DNA of 57,154 nt from Elusimicrobia bacterium RIFOXYA2_FULL_39_19. Lineage in GTDB: Bacteria; Elusimicrobiota; Endomicrobiia; CG1-02-37-114; XYA2-FULL-39-19. Below the pieces are notes generated by a model. The model searched no databases and was not told the DNA's origin. It saw only the letters and a program-made list of their open reading frames with translations. Below, in pieces: positions 18,241 through 54,661 of the stretch. The number at the start of each line of letters is the position of its first letter. Positions within the stretch are counted from its first letter, which is position 1. A program made the translations under genes and the position numbers. The stretch lies in contig MGVC01000037.1 in NCBI GenBank assembly GCA_001800285.1, forward strand, positions 1 to 57,154, read 5' to 3'.

Positions 18241-18321
18241 GGGCGCGTGGCGGAATGGCAGACGCGTACGGCTTAGGACCGTATGGTGAAAATCGTGGAG
18301 GTTCAACTCCTCTCGCGCCCA
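18241..18321 (+). tRNA. tRNA-Leu (anticodon TAG)
   Basis: The 81-nt cloverleaf has acceptor GGGCGCG paired with CGCGCCC, discriminator A at 18321, and an anticodon arm TACGG-CTTAGGA-CCGTA giving TAG. It also has a class II variable arm (TGGTGAAAATCGTGG) and T-loop GTTCAAC. CCA is not encoded. The last 17 nt plus one flanking base are repeated at 18499-18516. Confidence 0.95.
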
Positions 18322-18322
18322 A

Positions 18323-18516
18323 AATAAACAACAGAATTTTTGTGTATTTTTAAAAAAACCAGCAAGGACAAACCCGCGAGAGAAGTTGAAGCCGACCCGA
18401 GCGCATCCAGTGGATGAAAAGTCAGTCAAGCAAGGCTTGACAGGACGGAAGCGAGGGCGGCCGGGCTCTGGCGGAGGAACGAAGTGACGGGGGAAGAAAA
18501 CTCCTCTCGCGCCCAA
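18323..18516. repeat. tRNA-Leu 3'-end duplication with an inserted GC-rich palindromic segment
   Basis: The tRNA-Leu 3' end at 18305-18322 recurs exactly at 18499-18516 (18 bp, offset 194). The intervening DNA contains an inverted, one-mismatch copy of the same tRNA end (CGCGAGAGAAGTTGAA at 18375-18390). It also contains two compact hairpins, CATCC-AGT-GGATG (18404-18416) and GTCAAGC-AAG-GCTTGAC (18425-18441). It is much more GC-rich than its surroundings. An 18-bp copy of a tRNA 3' end is what an old integrase attachment site leaves, but no integrase is present in the window. Confidence 0.75.
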
Positions 18517-18674: not shown

Positions 18675-18808
18675 AAAATAAAGTACAAATTTTGCCTTAG
18701 GTCTACCTTAGGCCACGGCATAAATTCTGCTCCTAACGGAGAAAATAAAGTACAAATTTTGCCTTAGGTCTACCTTAGACCACGGCATAAATTCTGCTCC
18801 TAACGGAG
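18675..18808 (+). repeat. Two tandem 67-bp units upstream of tig
   Basis: Units 18675-18741 and 18742-18808 are identical except for one base (GGCC/GACC). Each ends in TCCTAACGGAG, so each carries a purine-rich GGAGAAA at its junction. The second merges with the Shine-Dalgarno region of tig (GGAGAAAGGAAG). This is a recent tandem duplication in the tig leader. Confidence 0.85.
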
Positions 18809-18827
18809 AAAGGAAGAGAACGAATTT

Positions 18828-48129: not shown

Positions 48130-50331
48130 ATGAGATTACTAATAGTTTCAAACAGACTGCCTTTTAGTGTTGAAGAAAATGAAGGTAAAATCAGTTTTAA
48201 AGAAAGTACCGGAGGCCTGGTTACCGGTATAAGCGCTTATCTTGATTCATTAAAAAACGCTTCCTTTACAAAGCAGGAACATGTTTGGATTGGCTGGCCC
48301 GGCAATGAAATAAACCCGAAACTTGAAAATGACCTGAAGAAAAAAGCTCTTGCTGATTTTAACGCTTATCCGGTTAATATTGATGAAAAATCCATGGATT
48401 GTTTTTATAACGGGTTCTGCAACAAGACTATCTGGCCTTTATTTCATTGTTTTCCAGTTTATACAGCTTATAATGAAACATTCTGGAATTATTATAAAAA
48501 AGTAAATGAACATTTTTGTGAAGCAATAGTGAAAATTGTAAAACCCGGTGATTTAATCTGGGTTCACGATTACCACCTTATGCTCCTGCCGAAGTTATTA
48601 AAAGAAAAATTGCCGGATACGCCAATAGGGTTTTTCCTTCATATACCTTTCCCGCCTATAGAAATATTCAGGCTGCTTCCTAAAAAATGGCGCGTAGAAA
48701 TACTTGAAGGGCTTATAGGTGCTGATTTGCTTGGTTTTCATACGCATGATTATACACAGAATTTTTTAAAGTGTACTTTGCGTTTGCTGGGGTTTGACCA
48801 TAACATGGGCAATATCACCACAGAAAACAGAATATTAAAAGCCGATACTTTTCCCATGGGAATTCATTTCCAGAAATATCATGACACAGCAAGCCTGCCG
48901 GAAGTTCAGGAGGAAAAAGAAAAACTTAGATCAACTTTAACCGGATTGAAAACCATTCTTTCGGTTGACCGCCTTGATTATACAAAAGGAATATTAAACA
49001 GGCTTGAAGGTTACCAACTGTTCCTGCAAAACAACCCCCAATGGCAAAAAAAGGTTGTAATGATATTAGTTGTAGTCCCTTCACGCATAGGAATAGATAA
49101 TTATCAGAAAATGAAGGCAGCGCTTGATGCGTATGTTGGAAAAATTAATGGCAGGTTCGGAAGCCTGGACTGGACACCCATTCATTATCAATATAAGTAT
49201 CTGCCGTTGAAGCCCCTGGTTGCTTTATATACTACCTGCGACGTTGCTATGATTACTCCTCTAAGAGACGGTATGAATCTTGTTTCCAAAGAATACATTG
49301 CATCATTGACAGATAAAACCGGCGTATTGATTTTAAGCGAAATGGCAGGGGCAGCAAAAGAGCTTGGCGAAGCTATAGTTATTAACCCTAATCATAAAGA
49401 GGAAATTGCCGAAGCTCTAAAAGAGGCGCTTGAAATGCCTGAGGAAGAACAAAAAAGAAGAAATACCATAATGCAAAAAAGGCTTCAGGAATATGATGTT
49501 ATCCGTTGGGCAAACGATTTTACGCAGGAATTGACGGATATAAATGAATTCAAGCAGAAATTCAATGCAAGACTGTTGAATTCTTCTGATAAAAAACAGC
49601 TTATTAAAAGCTTTAAGGATGCCGATTCAAGAATTATTTTTATGGATTATGACGGAACCCTGGTGCCGTTTGCCGGGCTTCCGGAAAATGCCTATCCTGA
49701 TGAAGAAATCCTGCAATTGTTAAAGTCATTTTCACAATACCCCGGCACAAAAATTGTTATTGTAAGCGGCAGGGACAAGCAAACTCTGCAGAATTGGCTT
49801 GGAAATACCAGCGTAGACATGGTTTCTGAACACGGTGTCTGGATAAAAGACAGCGGCAGTGATTGGCAGTTATTAAAACCCTTAACTTCGGACTGGAAAT
49901 TAAAAATAACGCCAATTCTGAAGACTTATTCTGACAGGTTGCCCAGATCTTTTGTGGAAGAAAAAGAATTTTCCGTTGTATGGCATTACCGCAGGTCTGA
50001 CCCTGAACTGGCCTCAATCAGGGCTAAAGAGCTTATGGATGACCTGATTTCCTTTACTGCTAATATTGATGTTCAAATACTGCAAGGCAACAAGGTAATT
50101 GAAATCAGAAATTCTGGTATTAACAAAGGAATTGCGGCAAATTACTTTCTTTCAAAGAATAAATACGATTTCATTATGGCTTTTGGAGATGACTGGACTG
50201 ATGAAGACCTTTTTAAAAGCCTTCCTGATAACGCCCATTCTTTTAAGGTTGGTATTTCGCCTTCACATGCGAAATATAATTTGAAAAACTATAAAGAAGT
50301 AAGAACCCTTATTGAAGGCCTAATAAAATAG
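48130..50331 (+). CDS. otsAB: Bifunctional trehalose-6-phosphate synthase/phosphatase
   Basis: This 733-residue fusion makes trehalose from a nucleotide-glucose and glucose-6-phosphate. Residues 1 to about 470 are a GT20 synthase (SNRLPFSVEENEG, FKESTGGLVTGI, IWVHDYHLMLLPKLL, VDRLDYTKGI, and TPLRDGMNLVSKEYI). Residues about 495-733 are the HAD-type phosphatase with nucleophile motif FMDYDGTLVPF near residue 505 and MAFGDDWTDEDLF. The gene converges with the TreS fusion, whose stop lies 26 bp away. No terminator is visible between them. Confidence 0.93.
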   Translation: MRLLIVSNRLPFSVEENEGKISFKESTGGLVTGISAYLDSLKNASFTKQEHVWIGWPGNEINPKLENDLKKKALADFNAYPVNIDEKSMDCFYNGFCNKTIWPLFHCFPVYTAYNETFWNYYKKVNEHFCEAIVKIVKPGDLIWVHDYHLMLLPKLLKEKLPDTPIGFFLHIPFPPIEIFRLLPKKWRVEILEGLIGADLLGFHTHDYTQNFLKCTLRLLGFDHNMGNITTENRILKADTFPMGIHFQKYHDTASLPEVQEEKEKLRSTLTGLKTILSVDRLDYTKGILNRLEGYQLFLQNNPQWQKKVVMILVVVPSRIGIDNYQKMKAALDAYVGKINGRFGSLDWTPIHYQYKYLPLKPLVALYTTCDVAMITPLRDGMNLVSKEYIASLTDKTGVLILSEMAGAAKELGEAIVINPNHKEEIAEALKEALEMPEEEQKRRNTIMQKRLQEYDVIRWANDFTQELTDINEFKQKFNARLLNSSDKKQLIKSFKDADSRIIFMDYDGTLVPFAGLPENAYPDEEILQLLKSFSQYPGTKIVIVSGRDKQTLQNWLGNTSVDMVSEHGVWIKDSGSDWQLLKPLTSDWKLKITPILKTYSDRLPRSFVEEKEFSVVWHYRRSDPELASIRAKELMDDLISFTANIDVQILQGNKVIEIRNSGINKGIAANYFLSKNKYDFIMAFGDDWTDEDLFKSLPDNAHSFKVGISPSHAKYNLKNYKEVRTLIEGLIK

Positions 50332-50357
50332 CACAAACATAATTATTTTTACGGTTT

Positions 50358-53300
50358 TTAAATCTCTTTTTTTAGAATATTGGCTATGCCGTTTATGGGG
50401 ATAGTTATCCAGTCAGGGCGGTTGTTGAGCTCATAACCAAGTTCATAGACGGCTTTTTCAAGCATAAAAATATCAAGCAGGTTTTCAATTTGTTTACGGT
50501 CGTTTGGAATAAAAACAGCCTTGTCAGCTGTTTCAAGATATGAAGTTAAAAAAGTACCGGCTGTATATTTATACCATAGAAGCATCCACTCTTCCATTTC
50601 TTTAAAATCTTCAGTTTTTATTGTCTGGTGTTTTATAAGCGAAGTATAGGCCGCATAATGCAAAGACCTTATCATTCCCGCAATGTCCTTTAAAGAAGAT
50701 TTTTTAAGCCTTCTTTCGTTTAAAGACCTCATCGGTTCGCCTTCAAAATCAATACTCTCAAAATCATTTCCCGTAAAAAGCAGCTGTCCCAGGTGGTAAT
50801 CACCATGAATTCTGATTTTCATGCCTGATATTTTTTCTTTAAAAATAAGTGAAAATCTGTTTATTATTTCTTTTTCAAAAGTTGTTAATTTAGCGGTTTT
50901 TTCTTTAAGGGTGTCCGGCAGGGATTTTTGGTTTTTTTTCAAGGTATCAAAAACTTTTTTTGTTAATCCCTGCATAGACTGGTAAAGAGAACGCTGGTAA
51001 AGGGTGGTAAAAGGTTCAGGCGCAAAATCCGGGTTTTCAGAATCAGAAGAAAGAGCAAAATGCAGCTGGGCAGTCCTGGTTCCCAGCAGTTTCATCATTT
51101 CAATATAATCAACGCCTATGGTTTCCTGTATGATCAAGGGTATTTCTTTGCAGCTGACATCAAGCAGGGATTCCGGTGCCGAAGGCGGTTTTTTTATTTC
51201 CGGGAGTTTTGTAAGTATTCTTTCATAGTAACGTGTAAGTGAATCAAGGGTATGCTGCCAGGCATCTGCCGGATTGCTTATGGTGCCCTGAAGTATTCCC
51301 ACTGCCATTGGTTTAGAATTGTGTTTGGTATATTCTATCATTCCGGCGAAAGGAGGGGCATTTCTGAAATTTGTTTTTTCTGTAAGAAATTTCCCTATTT
51401 CAATTTCGGGATTTATGCCTTCGTCAATTCTTCTGTAAAGTTTTAAGAATAGTTCATTTCCAAAAAGGATTGAAGTGTTGCTTTGCTGGGCGCTGGAAAC
51501 AGTAGATTTTTCATTTGTAAAAGATTTTCCCGAAAGAAGCATCTTTTTTAAATATTTGCCCGGATGGCCTGTCAGCCTGCCATTTGCTGTTTCAAAACTG
51601 TGTTTTTTTTCTATCATCAAAAGAAGGGTTTTCCTGAGCTCTTCATTATAAATACCGTCATAAATTATCCCTTCCTCAAAGTTGATTTTAAGGTTAGCAA
51701 TTACTGAATAAGGCAATTCGGTTTTTATTGTCTGTGCAGTAGGCCCGGTTGCCAGGCACACCGGCAGCAGATAGATTTCAGACAGCCCTTCAATAAATGT
51801 TGTTTCAAGTATAAGAATTCGTTCATTATCCTGCAGTTCAATATTTTCGATTATCCTTACTTGCTGTATTTTTTGTGATTTGCTTTTGAACCACCTGCAT
51901 TTTACAAGGTATTCGGGGAGAACCTTGCGTTCTAACTGTTCCTTGGCCTTTCCTTTTATTTCTCCTTCAATGTTTATATTGAAAACATTTTTGCTTCCTT
52001 CAATTAGTTCAATATCTTCTTTCTTGAGTTCAAACCAGAAGTAATCATAAAACCCGAGAGTAAACACATAGGGCGATTCTTTAATGGCAGGAAAACGGTT
52101 TTTGCTGAATATTTCCTGGAGAAAATAGCCGGCATATTTAGAAAGGTCAAGTTCTACTGACTGGGAAAACCGTGAGAGGTTAATTACAATAAGTATTATT
52201 TCATCTTTATATGTTCTGGTAAAGGCCAGTACCCTGGGATTATTTGAAGGTAAAAATTCCAGGCTCCCGCTTCCAAAAGATTTAAAACGCTTTCTCATGG
52301 CAACAACCCGTTTCATCCACCACAAAAGCGAGGACTGGTTGCTCTCATTGTTTTCTACATTTATTGCTTCATAATGGTATTCCGGGTCTATAATAATAGG
52401 AAGGTATAACTTTTGCGGATTTGCGCGGGAAAACCCGGCATTTTTATCTGAACTCCATTGCATGGGAGTCCTTACACCGTTTCTGTCGCCAAGGTAGAAG
52501 TTATCACCCATGCCAATCTCATCCCCATAATAGATTACCGGCGTGCCGGGCAGGGAGAAAAGCAGAATATTCATAAGTTCATATTTTCTCCGATGGTTGC
52601 CCAGAAGTGGTGCAAGCCTGCGCCTTATACCTATATTTATTCTGGTGTTCGGATCTTTTGCATAGACTCTGTACATATAATCTCTTTCTTCATCTGTTAC
52701 CATTTCAAGGGTTAATTCATCGTGGTTTCTTAAAAATAGCGCCCACTGGCAGTTATCAGGGATGGCTGGTGTCTGCTCAAAAATATCAATTATGGGGAAT
52801 CTGTCTTCCATCCACATTGACATAAACATTCTTGGCATAAGCGGAAAATGAAAGGTCATCTGGCAGGAATCACCCTTGCCGAAATAGGCAGCTGCGTCTT
52901 CAGGCCATTGATTGGCTTCTGCAAGAAGCACCCTGCCCGTATATTTTGAATCTATATGTTGTCTTATTGTCTGAAGATACTCATAGGTTTCCGGCAGGTT
53001 TTCACAATTTGTGCCTTCTTTTTCAAAAAGGTACGGGATGGCGTCAAGGCGCATACCGTCAACACCCATGTCAAGCCAGTAATCAATAACTTTAAGTATT
53101 GCTTTCTGCACATGAGGGCTGTTATAGTTCAGGTCCGGCTGGTGGGTATAAAACCTGTGCCAGTAATAGGAATTGGCAACAGTGTCCCAGGCCCAGTTGG
53201 AGGTTTCAAAATCTTTGAATATTATTCTTGCATCCTTGTATTTTTCCTGGGAGTCGCTCCAAACGTAAAAATCTCTTGCTGTTGAGCCTTTCGGCGCTTT

Positions 53301-53687
53301 TCTTGCTTTTTTAAACCAGGCATGCTGGTCTGAAGTATGGTTTAGCACAAGTTCTGTTATTACGCGGATACCGCGCTGGTGTGCTTCATTTAAAAAGTTT
53401 TTAAAATCTCTCAGAGTGCCGTAATTCGGGTGAATACTAAAATAATCGGCTATATCATAACCGTCATCTTTCAAGGGTGAAGGATAAAACGGCAGCAGCC
53501 AGATAGTGTTAATCCCAAGATTATTCAAATAATCAAGTTTACCGGTAAGTCCTTTGAAATCACCTATACCGTCATTATTGCTGTCACAAAATGACCTTAC
53601 GTGTAATTCATAGATAATGGCATTTTTATACCAGAGAGGATCATTCTCAAAATAAAAGCATTTTGTTTTAGCGGAAGGTTTTTTCAT
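50358..53687 (-). CDS. treS: Trehalose synthase-maltokinase fusion (TreS-Mak)
   Basis: This 1109-residue protein has an N-terminal GH13 trehalose synthase (about 1-560), which interconverts trehalose and maltose. It has VLNHTSDQHAWF, the nucleophile in DMGVDGMRLDAIPYL (near residue 215), the acid RVLLAEANQW and FLRNHDELTLEM. Residues about 575-1109 form a maltokinase (CRWFKSKSQ, later RIHGDYHLGQLL and DFEGEP), which makes maltose-1-phosphate. That is the feed to the GlgE alpha-glucan pathway; GlgE itself is not in this window. Paired with OtsAB it implies a trehalose-to-glucan route. Confidence 0.93.
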   Translation of the reverse strand: MKKPSAKTKCFYFENDPLWYKNAIIYELHVRSFCDSNNDGIGDFKGLTGKLDYLNNLGINTIWLLPFYPSPLKDDGYDIADYFSIHPNYGTLRDFKNFLNEAHQRGIRVITELVLNHTSDQHAWFKKARKAPKGSTARDFYVWSDSQEKYKDARIIFKDFETSNWAWDTVANSYYWHRFYTHQPDLNYNSPHVQKAILKVIDYWLDMGVDGMRLDAIPYLFEKEGTNCENLPETYEYLQTIRQHIDSKYTGRVLLAEANQWPEDAAAYFGKGDSCQMTFHFPLMPRMFMSMWMEDRFPIIDIFEQTPAIPDNCQWALFLRNHDELTLEMVTDEERDYMYRVYAKDPNTRINIGIRRRLAPLLGNHRRKYELMNILLFSLPGTPVIYYGDEIGMGDNFYLGDRNGVRTPMQWSSDKNAGFSRANPQKLYLPIIIDPEYHYEAINVENNESNQSSLLWWMKRVVAMRKRFKSFGSGSLEFLPSNNPRVLAFTRTYKDEIILIVINLSRFSQSVELDLSKYAGYFLQEIFSKNRFPAIKESPYVFTLGFYDYFWFELKKEDIELIEGSKNVFNINIEGEIKGKAKEQLERKVLPEYLVKCRWFKSKSQKIQQVRIIENIELQDNERILILETTFIEGLSEIYLLPVCLATGPTAQTIKTELPYSVIANLKINFEEGIIYDGIYNEELRKTLLLMIEKKHSFETANGRLTGHPGKYLKKMLLSGKSFTNEKSTVSSAQQSNTSILFGNELFLKLYRRIDEGINPEIEIGKFLTEKTNFRNAPPFAGMIEYTKHNSKPMAVGILQGTISNPADAWQHTLDSLTRYYERILTKLPEIKKPPSAPESLLDVSCKEIPLIIQETIGVDYIEMMKLLGTRTAQLHFALSSDSENPDFAPEPFTTLYQRSLYQSMQGLTKKVFDTLKKNQKSLPDTLKEKTAKLTTFEKEIINRFSLIFKEKISGMKIRIHGDYHLGQLLFTGNDFESIDFEGEPMRSLNERRLKKSSLKDIAGMIRSLHYAAYTSLIKHQTIKTEDFKEMEEWMLLWYKYTAGTFLTSYLETADKAVFIPNDRKQIENLLDIFMLEKAVYELGYELNNRPDWITIPINGIANILKKEI

Positions 53688-53952: not shown

Positions 53953-54030
53953 TGGGGTAGGTAACCGGATTTGAACCGGCAGCCTCCTGGGCCACAGCCA
54001 AGCGCTCTAACCAATTGAGCTATACCTACC
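53953..54030 (-). tRNA. tRNA-His (anticodon GTG)
   Basis: The anticodon arm CTTGG-CTGTGGC-CCAGG gives GTG. The histidine-specific extra G(-1) at 54030 pairs with discriminator C73, and CCA is encoded (53953-53955). Acceptor GTAGGTA pairs with TACCTAC. The first 18 nt plus 7 nt of upstream flank recur at 54187-54211. Confidence 0.95.
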
Positions 54031-54081
54031 ACTTTGTGCTTTCTGAATATATTTAAGTTTAAAGAACAGTTTTTATAGTAA

Positions 54082-54211
54082 ATCCCGCTATTGCGGGATA
54101 GCGCTCCCCTGCTTCGCTGGCATATTTTGTTAACCGCAGCTAAACGCTGTAACAAAATATAGCTTTGCAGGACACTGTAACCGGATAATTGAGCTATACC
54201 TACCACTTTGT
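54082..54211 (-). repeat. Partial tRNA-His copy with hairpin insertion (tRNA-linked element, His)
   Basis: Read in the tRNA direction, the segment starts with a 25-bp exact copy of the tRNA-His 5' end and flank (54211-54187). Then come ATCC (54186-54183), GGTTA (54182-54178), a 71-nt palindromic core (54177-54107), GAGCGCT as in the tRNA (54106-54100), and a perfect 7-bp hairpin ATCCCGC-AATA-GCGGGAT (54099-54082). The copy contains the tRNA D-arm split by the core and stops before the anticodon. The core pairs CCTGC with GCAGG and ATATTTTGTTA with TAACAAAATAT. Confidence 0.8.
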
Positions 54212-54273
54212 CGCACCCTAACGGGTTCCCTCACTTGCTAACGAAGGAAGCGTTCGGTGCTCTATGAAACTGA

Positions 54274-54350
54274 TAGTGGTTACGTGGTTAAGTGTTTAGT
54301 TGTTAGTAAGGATTTTACTAATCACAAAAGCACTAATCACTTATTCACTG
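54274..54350 (-). repeat. GTGATTA-type palindromic repeat, copy 3
   Basis: AGTGGTTACGTGGTTAAGTG on one arm and CACTAATCACTTATTCACT on the other form an imperfect hairpin. It lies between the His element and tRNA-Arg. The 45 bp before it (54212-54262) contain CACCCTAACGGGT and other short repeat-like words but no gene. Confidence 0.7.
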
Positions 54351-54360
54351 TTTTAATAAG

Positions 54361-54434
54361 TGGGCCCGATGAGACTCGAACTCATAACCACCTGCTTAGA
54401 AGGCAGGTGCTCTATCCAATTGAGCTACGGGCCC
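54361..54434 (-). tRNA. tRNA-Arg (anticodon TCT)
   Basis: Acceptor GGGCCCG pairs with CGGGCCC, discriminator A at 54361, CCA not encoded. The anticodon arm CCTGC-CTTCTAA-GCAGG gives TCT (reads AGA/AGG). T-loop is GTTCGAG. The first 17 nt plus 9 nt of flank recur exactly at 54636-54661. Confidence 0.95.
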
Positions 54435-54531
54435 AAAATTTTCCCAATGATTCATTCTTTTAATTGATATTGGAACGCCTATTCGGCAAAAGAACAATGT
54501 ACAAATAATAACGGAATGATTTTTTATGTAT

Positions 54532-54661
54532 ACCAATCTACGATTGGTGGTGCTCTCCTGCTTCGCTGGCATTTTTTGTTAACCATAGCCATCGGCTACA
54601 ACAAAACATAGCTTCGCAGGACACTGTATCAGGATAATTGAGCTACGGGCCCAAAATTTTC
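54532..54661 (-). repeat. Partial tRNA-Arg copy with hairpin insertion (tRNA-linked element, Arg)
   Basis: This has the same architecture as the His element, with tRNA-Arg sequence: 26-bp exact copy of the tRNA 5' end and flank (54661-54636), ATCC (54635-54632), TGATA (54631-54627), a 71-nt core (54626-54556), GAGCACC as in tRNA-Arg (54555-54549), and a 7-bp hairpin ACCAATC-GTA-GATTGGT (54548-54532). The core matches the His core in both outer arms. The apical stem differs but still pairs (TAGCC/GGCTA here, CAGC/GCTG there), which is compensatory change. Confidence 0.8.

Follow-up and report, generated by a model that had tools for sequence, protein, structure and literature searches.

The window, a 57,154-nt stretch of an Elusimicrobiota MAG (labelled G000; 3.09 Mb, 43 tRNA genes), carries on its minus strand an intact tRNA-His(gtg) gene (53953-54029) and an intact tRNA-Arg(tct) gene (54360-54434), both called by Aragorn and Rfam, each of which is preceded by an exact partial copy of itself. 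In the His unit, 25 bp comprising the tRNA 5' end and 8 nt of leader (54013-54037) recur at 54187-54211, and in the Arg unit 26 bp (54418-54443) recur at 54636-54661. Read along the minus strand, the copied leader and tRNA nucleotides 1-17 are followed by ATCC, five D-loop bases, a palindrome, and the 3' half of the D-stem of the same tRNA (GAGCGCT, 54100-54106, for His; GAGCACC, 54549-54555, for Arg). Behind this half lie a 7-bp hairpin, an AT-rich spacer, a second leader and the intact gene. The hairpin of the pseudo-tRNA-His (ATCCCGC-..-GCGGGAT, 54082-54099) occupies the place of the anticodon arm, and its counterpart in the Arg unit is ACCAATC-..-GATTGGT (54532-54548). The palindrome common to both units is approximately 64-71 nt long, with its core at 54108-54171 in the His copy and 54557-54620 in the Arg copy, and an alignment of the two inserts shows 85% identity across 94 nt. 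The initial annotation, which had described exact upstream self-copies, D-stem halves, 7-bp hairpins and a shared core between locus-specific tRNA parts, is borne out in these respects; the five D-loop bases that it also reported are present behind ATCC, as GGTTA, identical to the tRNA, in the His unit and as TGATA, with only four of five bases matching, in the Arg unit. Several tRNA genes are also immediately preceded by up to three tandem copies of another repeat family, GAGCGCCGAGCG..TTAGGGCGCGACAAA (window approximately 54208-54263, minus strand; L066, 619-999; L054, 779-818; L009). The neighbouring segment of the window (48130-53687) encodes an OtsA-OtsB fusion beside a second fusion, of a trehalose-synthase-like alpha-amylase with a maltokinase cap.

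The third tRNA of the window with such a unit is tRNA-Leu(tag) (18241-18321, plus strand; Aragorn), in which the unit is of the 3' type and lies downstream (18376-18516). An inverted copy of the T-loop/3' end (GCGAGAGAAGTTGAA, 18376-18390) and a direct copy of the 3' end (AACTCCTCTCGCGCCCAA, 18499-18516) enclose a core of the GAAGCCGACCCGAGCG family (18391-18498), all on the plus strand. The GAAGCCGACCCGAGCG family has six exact copies in G000, every one beside a tRNA gene. The sequence GAAGSCGACCYGNGCG, with which family A starts, likewise occurs six times without mismatch in G000, always at a tRNA. The family-A pattern also has a match (C8) inside an apparent coding gene that is desulfurase-like by eye. 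Soon after the Leu unit, a 67-bp sequence is tandemly repeated in two copies (18675-18811).

The His and Arg cores were used to build a covariance model (R2), which matches them at 54097-54196 and 54546-54645. It finds six copies in G000 and none in 393 other genomes, and no match to the core was obtained in viral contigs, phages or plasmids. The copies lie at tRNA-His, at tRNA-Arg, on the opposite strand 3' of three tRNA-Ser genes (the third being L068), and at one dispersed site where there is no tRNA (C24). The expectation that the core would not occur mostly away from tRNA genes, and with it the idea of a tRNA-targeted palindromic element, is thus well supported in G000, and the family is considered young because five of its six copies are at tRNA genes and it is absent from the other genomes. 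Both window cores fold stably (z of -3.2 and -2.8). The suggestion that the apical stem differs between the copies and still pairs is weak for the two window copies, which show one double-sided change among 27 pairs, and strong for the family of six, in which 14 of 27 pairs are changed on both sides (29 doubly changed cells versus 9.9 after shuffling).

Partial self-copies extend well beyond the window. In a search for exact pieces of each tRNA, 13 nt or longer, up to 450 bp away from the gene and with other tRNAs masked, 11 of the 43 tRNA genes of G000 had one, compared to 0 of 1,782 control searches with flanks of unrelated tRNAs. The copy holds the outer end of the tRNA together with its leader or terminator: upstream copies begin without exception at the 5' end of the tRNA (His, Arg, Asn, Ser-cga, Ser-tga, Pro-tgg), and downstream copies always reach the 3' end (Gly-tcc, Gly-gcc, Gln-ctg, Leu-taa, Glu-ttc, Ser-tga), some taking in the terminator (53 bp for Gln and 38 bp for Glu). 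Such copies are few in relatives of the same family (2 of 40 and 2 of 29 tRNAs), and none was found among the 18 tRNAs of one genome of another family. In the relative G002, tRNA-Arg and tRNA-His lie 14 nt apart with no insert (L010), which is the empty state. A possible third kind of tRNA-end copy is seen at L159, upstream of tRNA-Gln(ttg), where short tandem units consist of the leader, the acceptor 5' strand TTTTGGGGCG, a hairpin and CTGCCC.

Most of the other self-copy units of G000 hold a different core, termed H1-H2, which consists of NNGG, a hairpin with a 3' bulge and the loop GAATAA, a second hairpin with the loop GAGNNGGTGA, and a terminal NGG; its imperfect, bulged palindrome is confirmed. 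The motif GAG[AT][CT]GGTGAG occurs seven times in the 3.09 Mb of G000, and all seven occurrences are beside tRNAs (P about 8e-15). The copy number in this genome is seven for H1-H2 and six for the window core. A model of H1-H2 (R1) was searched in 394 relatives and matches in 46 of them. Thirty R1 loci were taken, of which 22 have an Aragorn tRNA, no more than a few hundred nucleotides away where the distance was measured; at two more (L158 and L160) the tRNA-Asn carries a group I intron, and at L154 there is a tRNA-Ser that is seemingly split by an island. The 30 top R1 hits in three relatives are bimodally distributed, 10 lying within 152 nt of a tRNA and the others at least 6.5 kb from one or on a contig without a tRNA.

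A pattern scan of GTDB places H1-H2 in Nitrospira, Clostridia, Omnitrophota, Deltaproteobacteria and others, where it is mostly dispersed, although 10 of 122 matches have a tRNA no more than 400 nt away (P 5e-6). The tRNA-linked copies of like design include those at Pro (Syntrophaceae), Thr (Nitrospirae) and Val (an unclassified bacterium). Many Elusimicrobiota and some Nitrospirota, Clostridia and Deltaproteobacteria thus have tRNA-linked copies, but H1-H2 is a dispersed repeat as well, both in these phyla and in others, with many such copies in Nitrospira and Clostridia; the tRNA preference proposed initially is clear in G000 but not absolute. At the Nitrospira and Alkaliphilus loci L185, L200 and L211, the dispersed intergenic repeat has conserved flanks of its own. 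A single viral match to the pattern was set aside as chance by its appearance. Some units appear to be inherited vertically, since Gly-gcc has one at the same place in G000 and G002 and Ser units recur in one family; core identity shows no clear difference between vertical and horizontal spread (0.64, 0.67, 0.60).

In 20 of the 28 copies linked to tRNAs, the sequence up to the GG that opens the element is an exact piece of the tRNA at that locus, the opposite of a block recurring in relatives without matching tRNA arms. The H1-H2 element starts straight after the GG of the copied tRNA, in the D-loop, the anticodon/variable region or the 3' end, and the entry positions are 10-12, 18-19, 24-26 or 40-47 (Gly units being numbered on the opposite strand). 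Among 60 R1 copies, the foot contains GG in 51 (ATGG 12, AAGG 7, GCGG 7, GAGG 7, GTGG 5). The tRNA sequence resumes behind the insert in L168, L170, L236 and L261, with just 1-2 nt differing. Beside several inserts, the same tRNA arm is found again, inverted and free of the element (for Asn, GCTCCACCATTGAGC), and inverted D-arm copies adjoin the insert at Asn, L055, L169 and L170; these copies are not accounted for by simple insertion with duplication. They would fit units that arose as the DNA was replicated, by template switching at tRNA palindromes and duplication on the spot, with no mobile element involved, since tRNA arms are themselves hairpins, inverted D-arm and T-arm copies adjoin the direct ones, and units stand in tandem at L157, L162 and L171. 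This origin is nevertheless very unlikely, as the cores are not derived from tRNAs and are common to different tRNAs, genomes and phyla.

Covariation is very strong in the 60 R1 copies, in which 91.4% of cells pair and 353 are doubly changed, compared to 111 after shuffling, and the covariation score is 0.730 versus 0.13-0.15 at best when slid. G.T pairs make up 0.9% of the R1 stems (9 of 1,010; 4.0% if one poorly defined bulge-side pair, omitted from this figure, is included, in an alignment that was fitted to the model), as against 6.5-7.6% in the tRNA stems of the same genomes. Because G.T pairs are rare and covariation is this strong, the palindromes seem to be maintained as DNA. Covariation and the conserved loops (GAATAA and GAGNNGGTGA) could also be features of a functional structured RNA that is co-transcribed with the tRNA and acts as a processing signal, a tRNA decoy or a switch, the more so as the units lie within tRNA transcripts and the inverted tRNA pieces are able to pair with parts of the tRNA. 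This role is unlikely, given that G.T pairs are eight times rarer than in tRNA stems, that the units differ in position (5', 3', D-loop, variable region), in strand and in the tRNA concerned, that the same tRNAs lack units in relatives, and that dispersed copies exist. Rfam covariance models gave no match in the elements, the only matches reaching threshold being tRNA, tmRNA and group I introns outside them. The alternative reading of the initial annotation, a D-arm-intron-like structure, is not supported: inserts on either strand are also found at the 3' end and in the anticodon/variable region, there is always an intact tRNA close by, and the scarcity of G.T pairs points to DNA and not to a spliced RNA.

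Recombination by tyrosine integrases takes place in tRNA genes and displaces one end of the tRNA, and the units might therefore be attachment-site scars of integrative elements, with the hairpins as attP arms or remnants. Partial tRNA ends present as direct repeats are the hallmark of integrase attachment, and integrase-like frames, recognized by eye, abut tRNA-Arg, tRNA-Val and tRNA-Met in G000 (L041, L059, L062); these integrase-abutted tRNAs, however, have neither a self-copy nor H1-H2. An island of approximately 11 kb also seems to split tRNA-Ser(gct) in G002 (L154; contig C209, 9263-20081), but the split is in the anticodon loop and the element in the D-loop. The island would thereby have carried the old 5' half of tRNA-Ser(gct), together with its H1-H2 element, away from the intact gene. 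The units themselves are only 100-270 bp long, share palindromic cores, contain no gene and are also dispersed away from tRNAs, and the duplicated part takes in the locus-specific leader or terminator, all of which makes an origin as integrase scars improbable.

The units are probably non-autonomous, gene-less palindromic mobile DNA inserted in tRNA genes, of which an intact copy is kept. This reading draws on the association of a partial copy, a palindrome and an intact tRNA at many tRNAs, the start at GG, the covarying stems and the insert-free relatives. The element would move as DNA, and its hairpins may be read as single strands by a trans-acting enzyme, as is the case for REP or IS200/IS605 ends. 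Duplication of the tRNA may arise with or after insertion, or perhaps before it, and would be retained since loss of the tRNA would be lethal. Disruption of a tRNA gene present only once would likewise kill the cell, so that the insertions left to be seen would be those with a further copy. A wider formulation, in which gene-less palindromic mobile elements spanning phyla target tRNA genes at GG, often G18-G19 of the D-loop, and regenerate the tRNA by copying its end via a putative enzyme, is put forward tentatively.

No mobilizing gene was found at the elements, and no transposase-like gene recurs near 118 loci. G000 has six Y1 genes, one of them directly behind tRNA-Arg(ccg); at five of these Y1 (RAYT) loci, neither R1 or R2 copies nor a common repeat was found. 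The Y1 (IS200-like) gene behind tRNA-Arg(ccg) begins 57 nt after it (L053, 1129-1611). No Y1 transposase is seen in 15 of the 46 element-bearing genomes, one of which is a single contig, and their presence in 31 of 46 carriers versus 179 of 348 other genomes (P 0.06) amounts to a weak association only. The tRNA piece 5' of the hairpins resembles a guide, and H1-H2 was considered as the guide-scaffold of an RNA-guided nuclease; with no recurrent nuclease gene near the loci and no HEARO match, it counts as no more than an idea. The HNH gene at two Asn loci is part of a group I intron and not of the element.

Several known systems resemble these units in part. REPs are short intergenic palindromes with a GT[AG]G foot and a bulged hairpin, presumed to be mobilized as single-stranded DNA by Y1 HUH enzymes (PMC6006769, PMC3733652, PMC8266576). 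The anatomy of H1-H2, with its short foot, bulged hairpin, second hairpin and foot-like NGG end, suggests a REP-like non-autonomous element, which shares with REP/BIME (REPIN) and RAYT (TnpA_REP) systems an apparently intergenic location and an imperfect hairpin with a bulge that directly follows a short unpaired foot. It differs in having two hairpins with conserved loops, a strong preference for tRNA genes, and a foot that is part of the copied tRNA and is mostly NNGG, with GTGG, which would fit the GT[AG]G of REPs, in only 5 of 60; moreover, the element does not flank the RAYT genes of G000, and no RAYT is seen in many of the carriers. Because of the foot and the RAYT flanks, the elements are best classed as a variant of short palindromic mobile repeats and not members of REP/RAYT. 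The CGTC-tagged palindromes, including Rickettsia palindromic elements, are likewise small repeated palindromes that have no transposase of their own (PMC3733652), but here the foot is GG and the element sits in tRNA copies with the intact tRNA kept. Mitochondrial double-hairpin or repetitive hairpin-forming elements of Allomyces and sponges are presumed mobile, have a low to moderate copy number and are also present inside RNA genes (PMC2800124); they share the double hairpin, whereas the elements described here are bacterial, target tRNA genes and duplicate tRNA ends. Integrative elements with attachment sites in tRNA genes also duplicate tRNA ends and restore the gene, but the present units have neither integrase nor cargo and share palindromic cores. 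Group I introns are inserts inside tRNA sequence as well, but the present elements have no group I core and lie in an extra copy, leaving the functional tRNA uninterrupted. In two Elusimicrobiota, the anticodon loop of tRNA-Asn holds such an intron (RF00028), which includes an HNH-like ORF (L160, 1647-2338; L158, 839-1407). No earlier description of these elements was found in the open-access literature.

The tRNA genes are favoured docking sites of large integrative elements, but tiny palindromes without genes that settle in them as a class of their own and leave a working tRNA behind are not known to us. The elements are present in at least four phyla and are searchable by covariance model, and the partial tRNA copies that accompany them also disturb tRNA annotation. 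If the elements do not move, their low G.T content needs another cause; if they do, an enzyme that recognizes tRNA-like hairpins in DNA would be implied.
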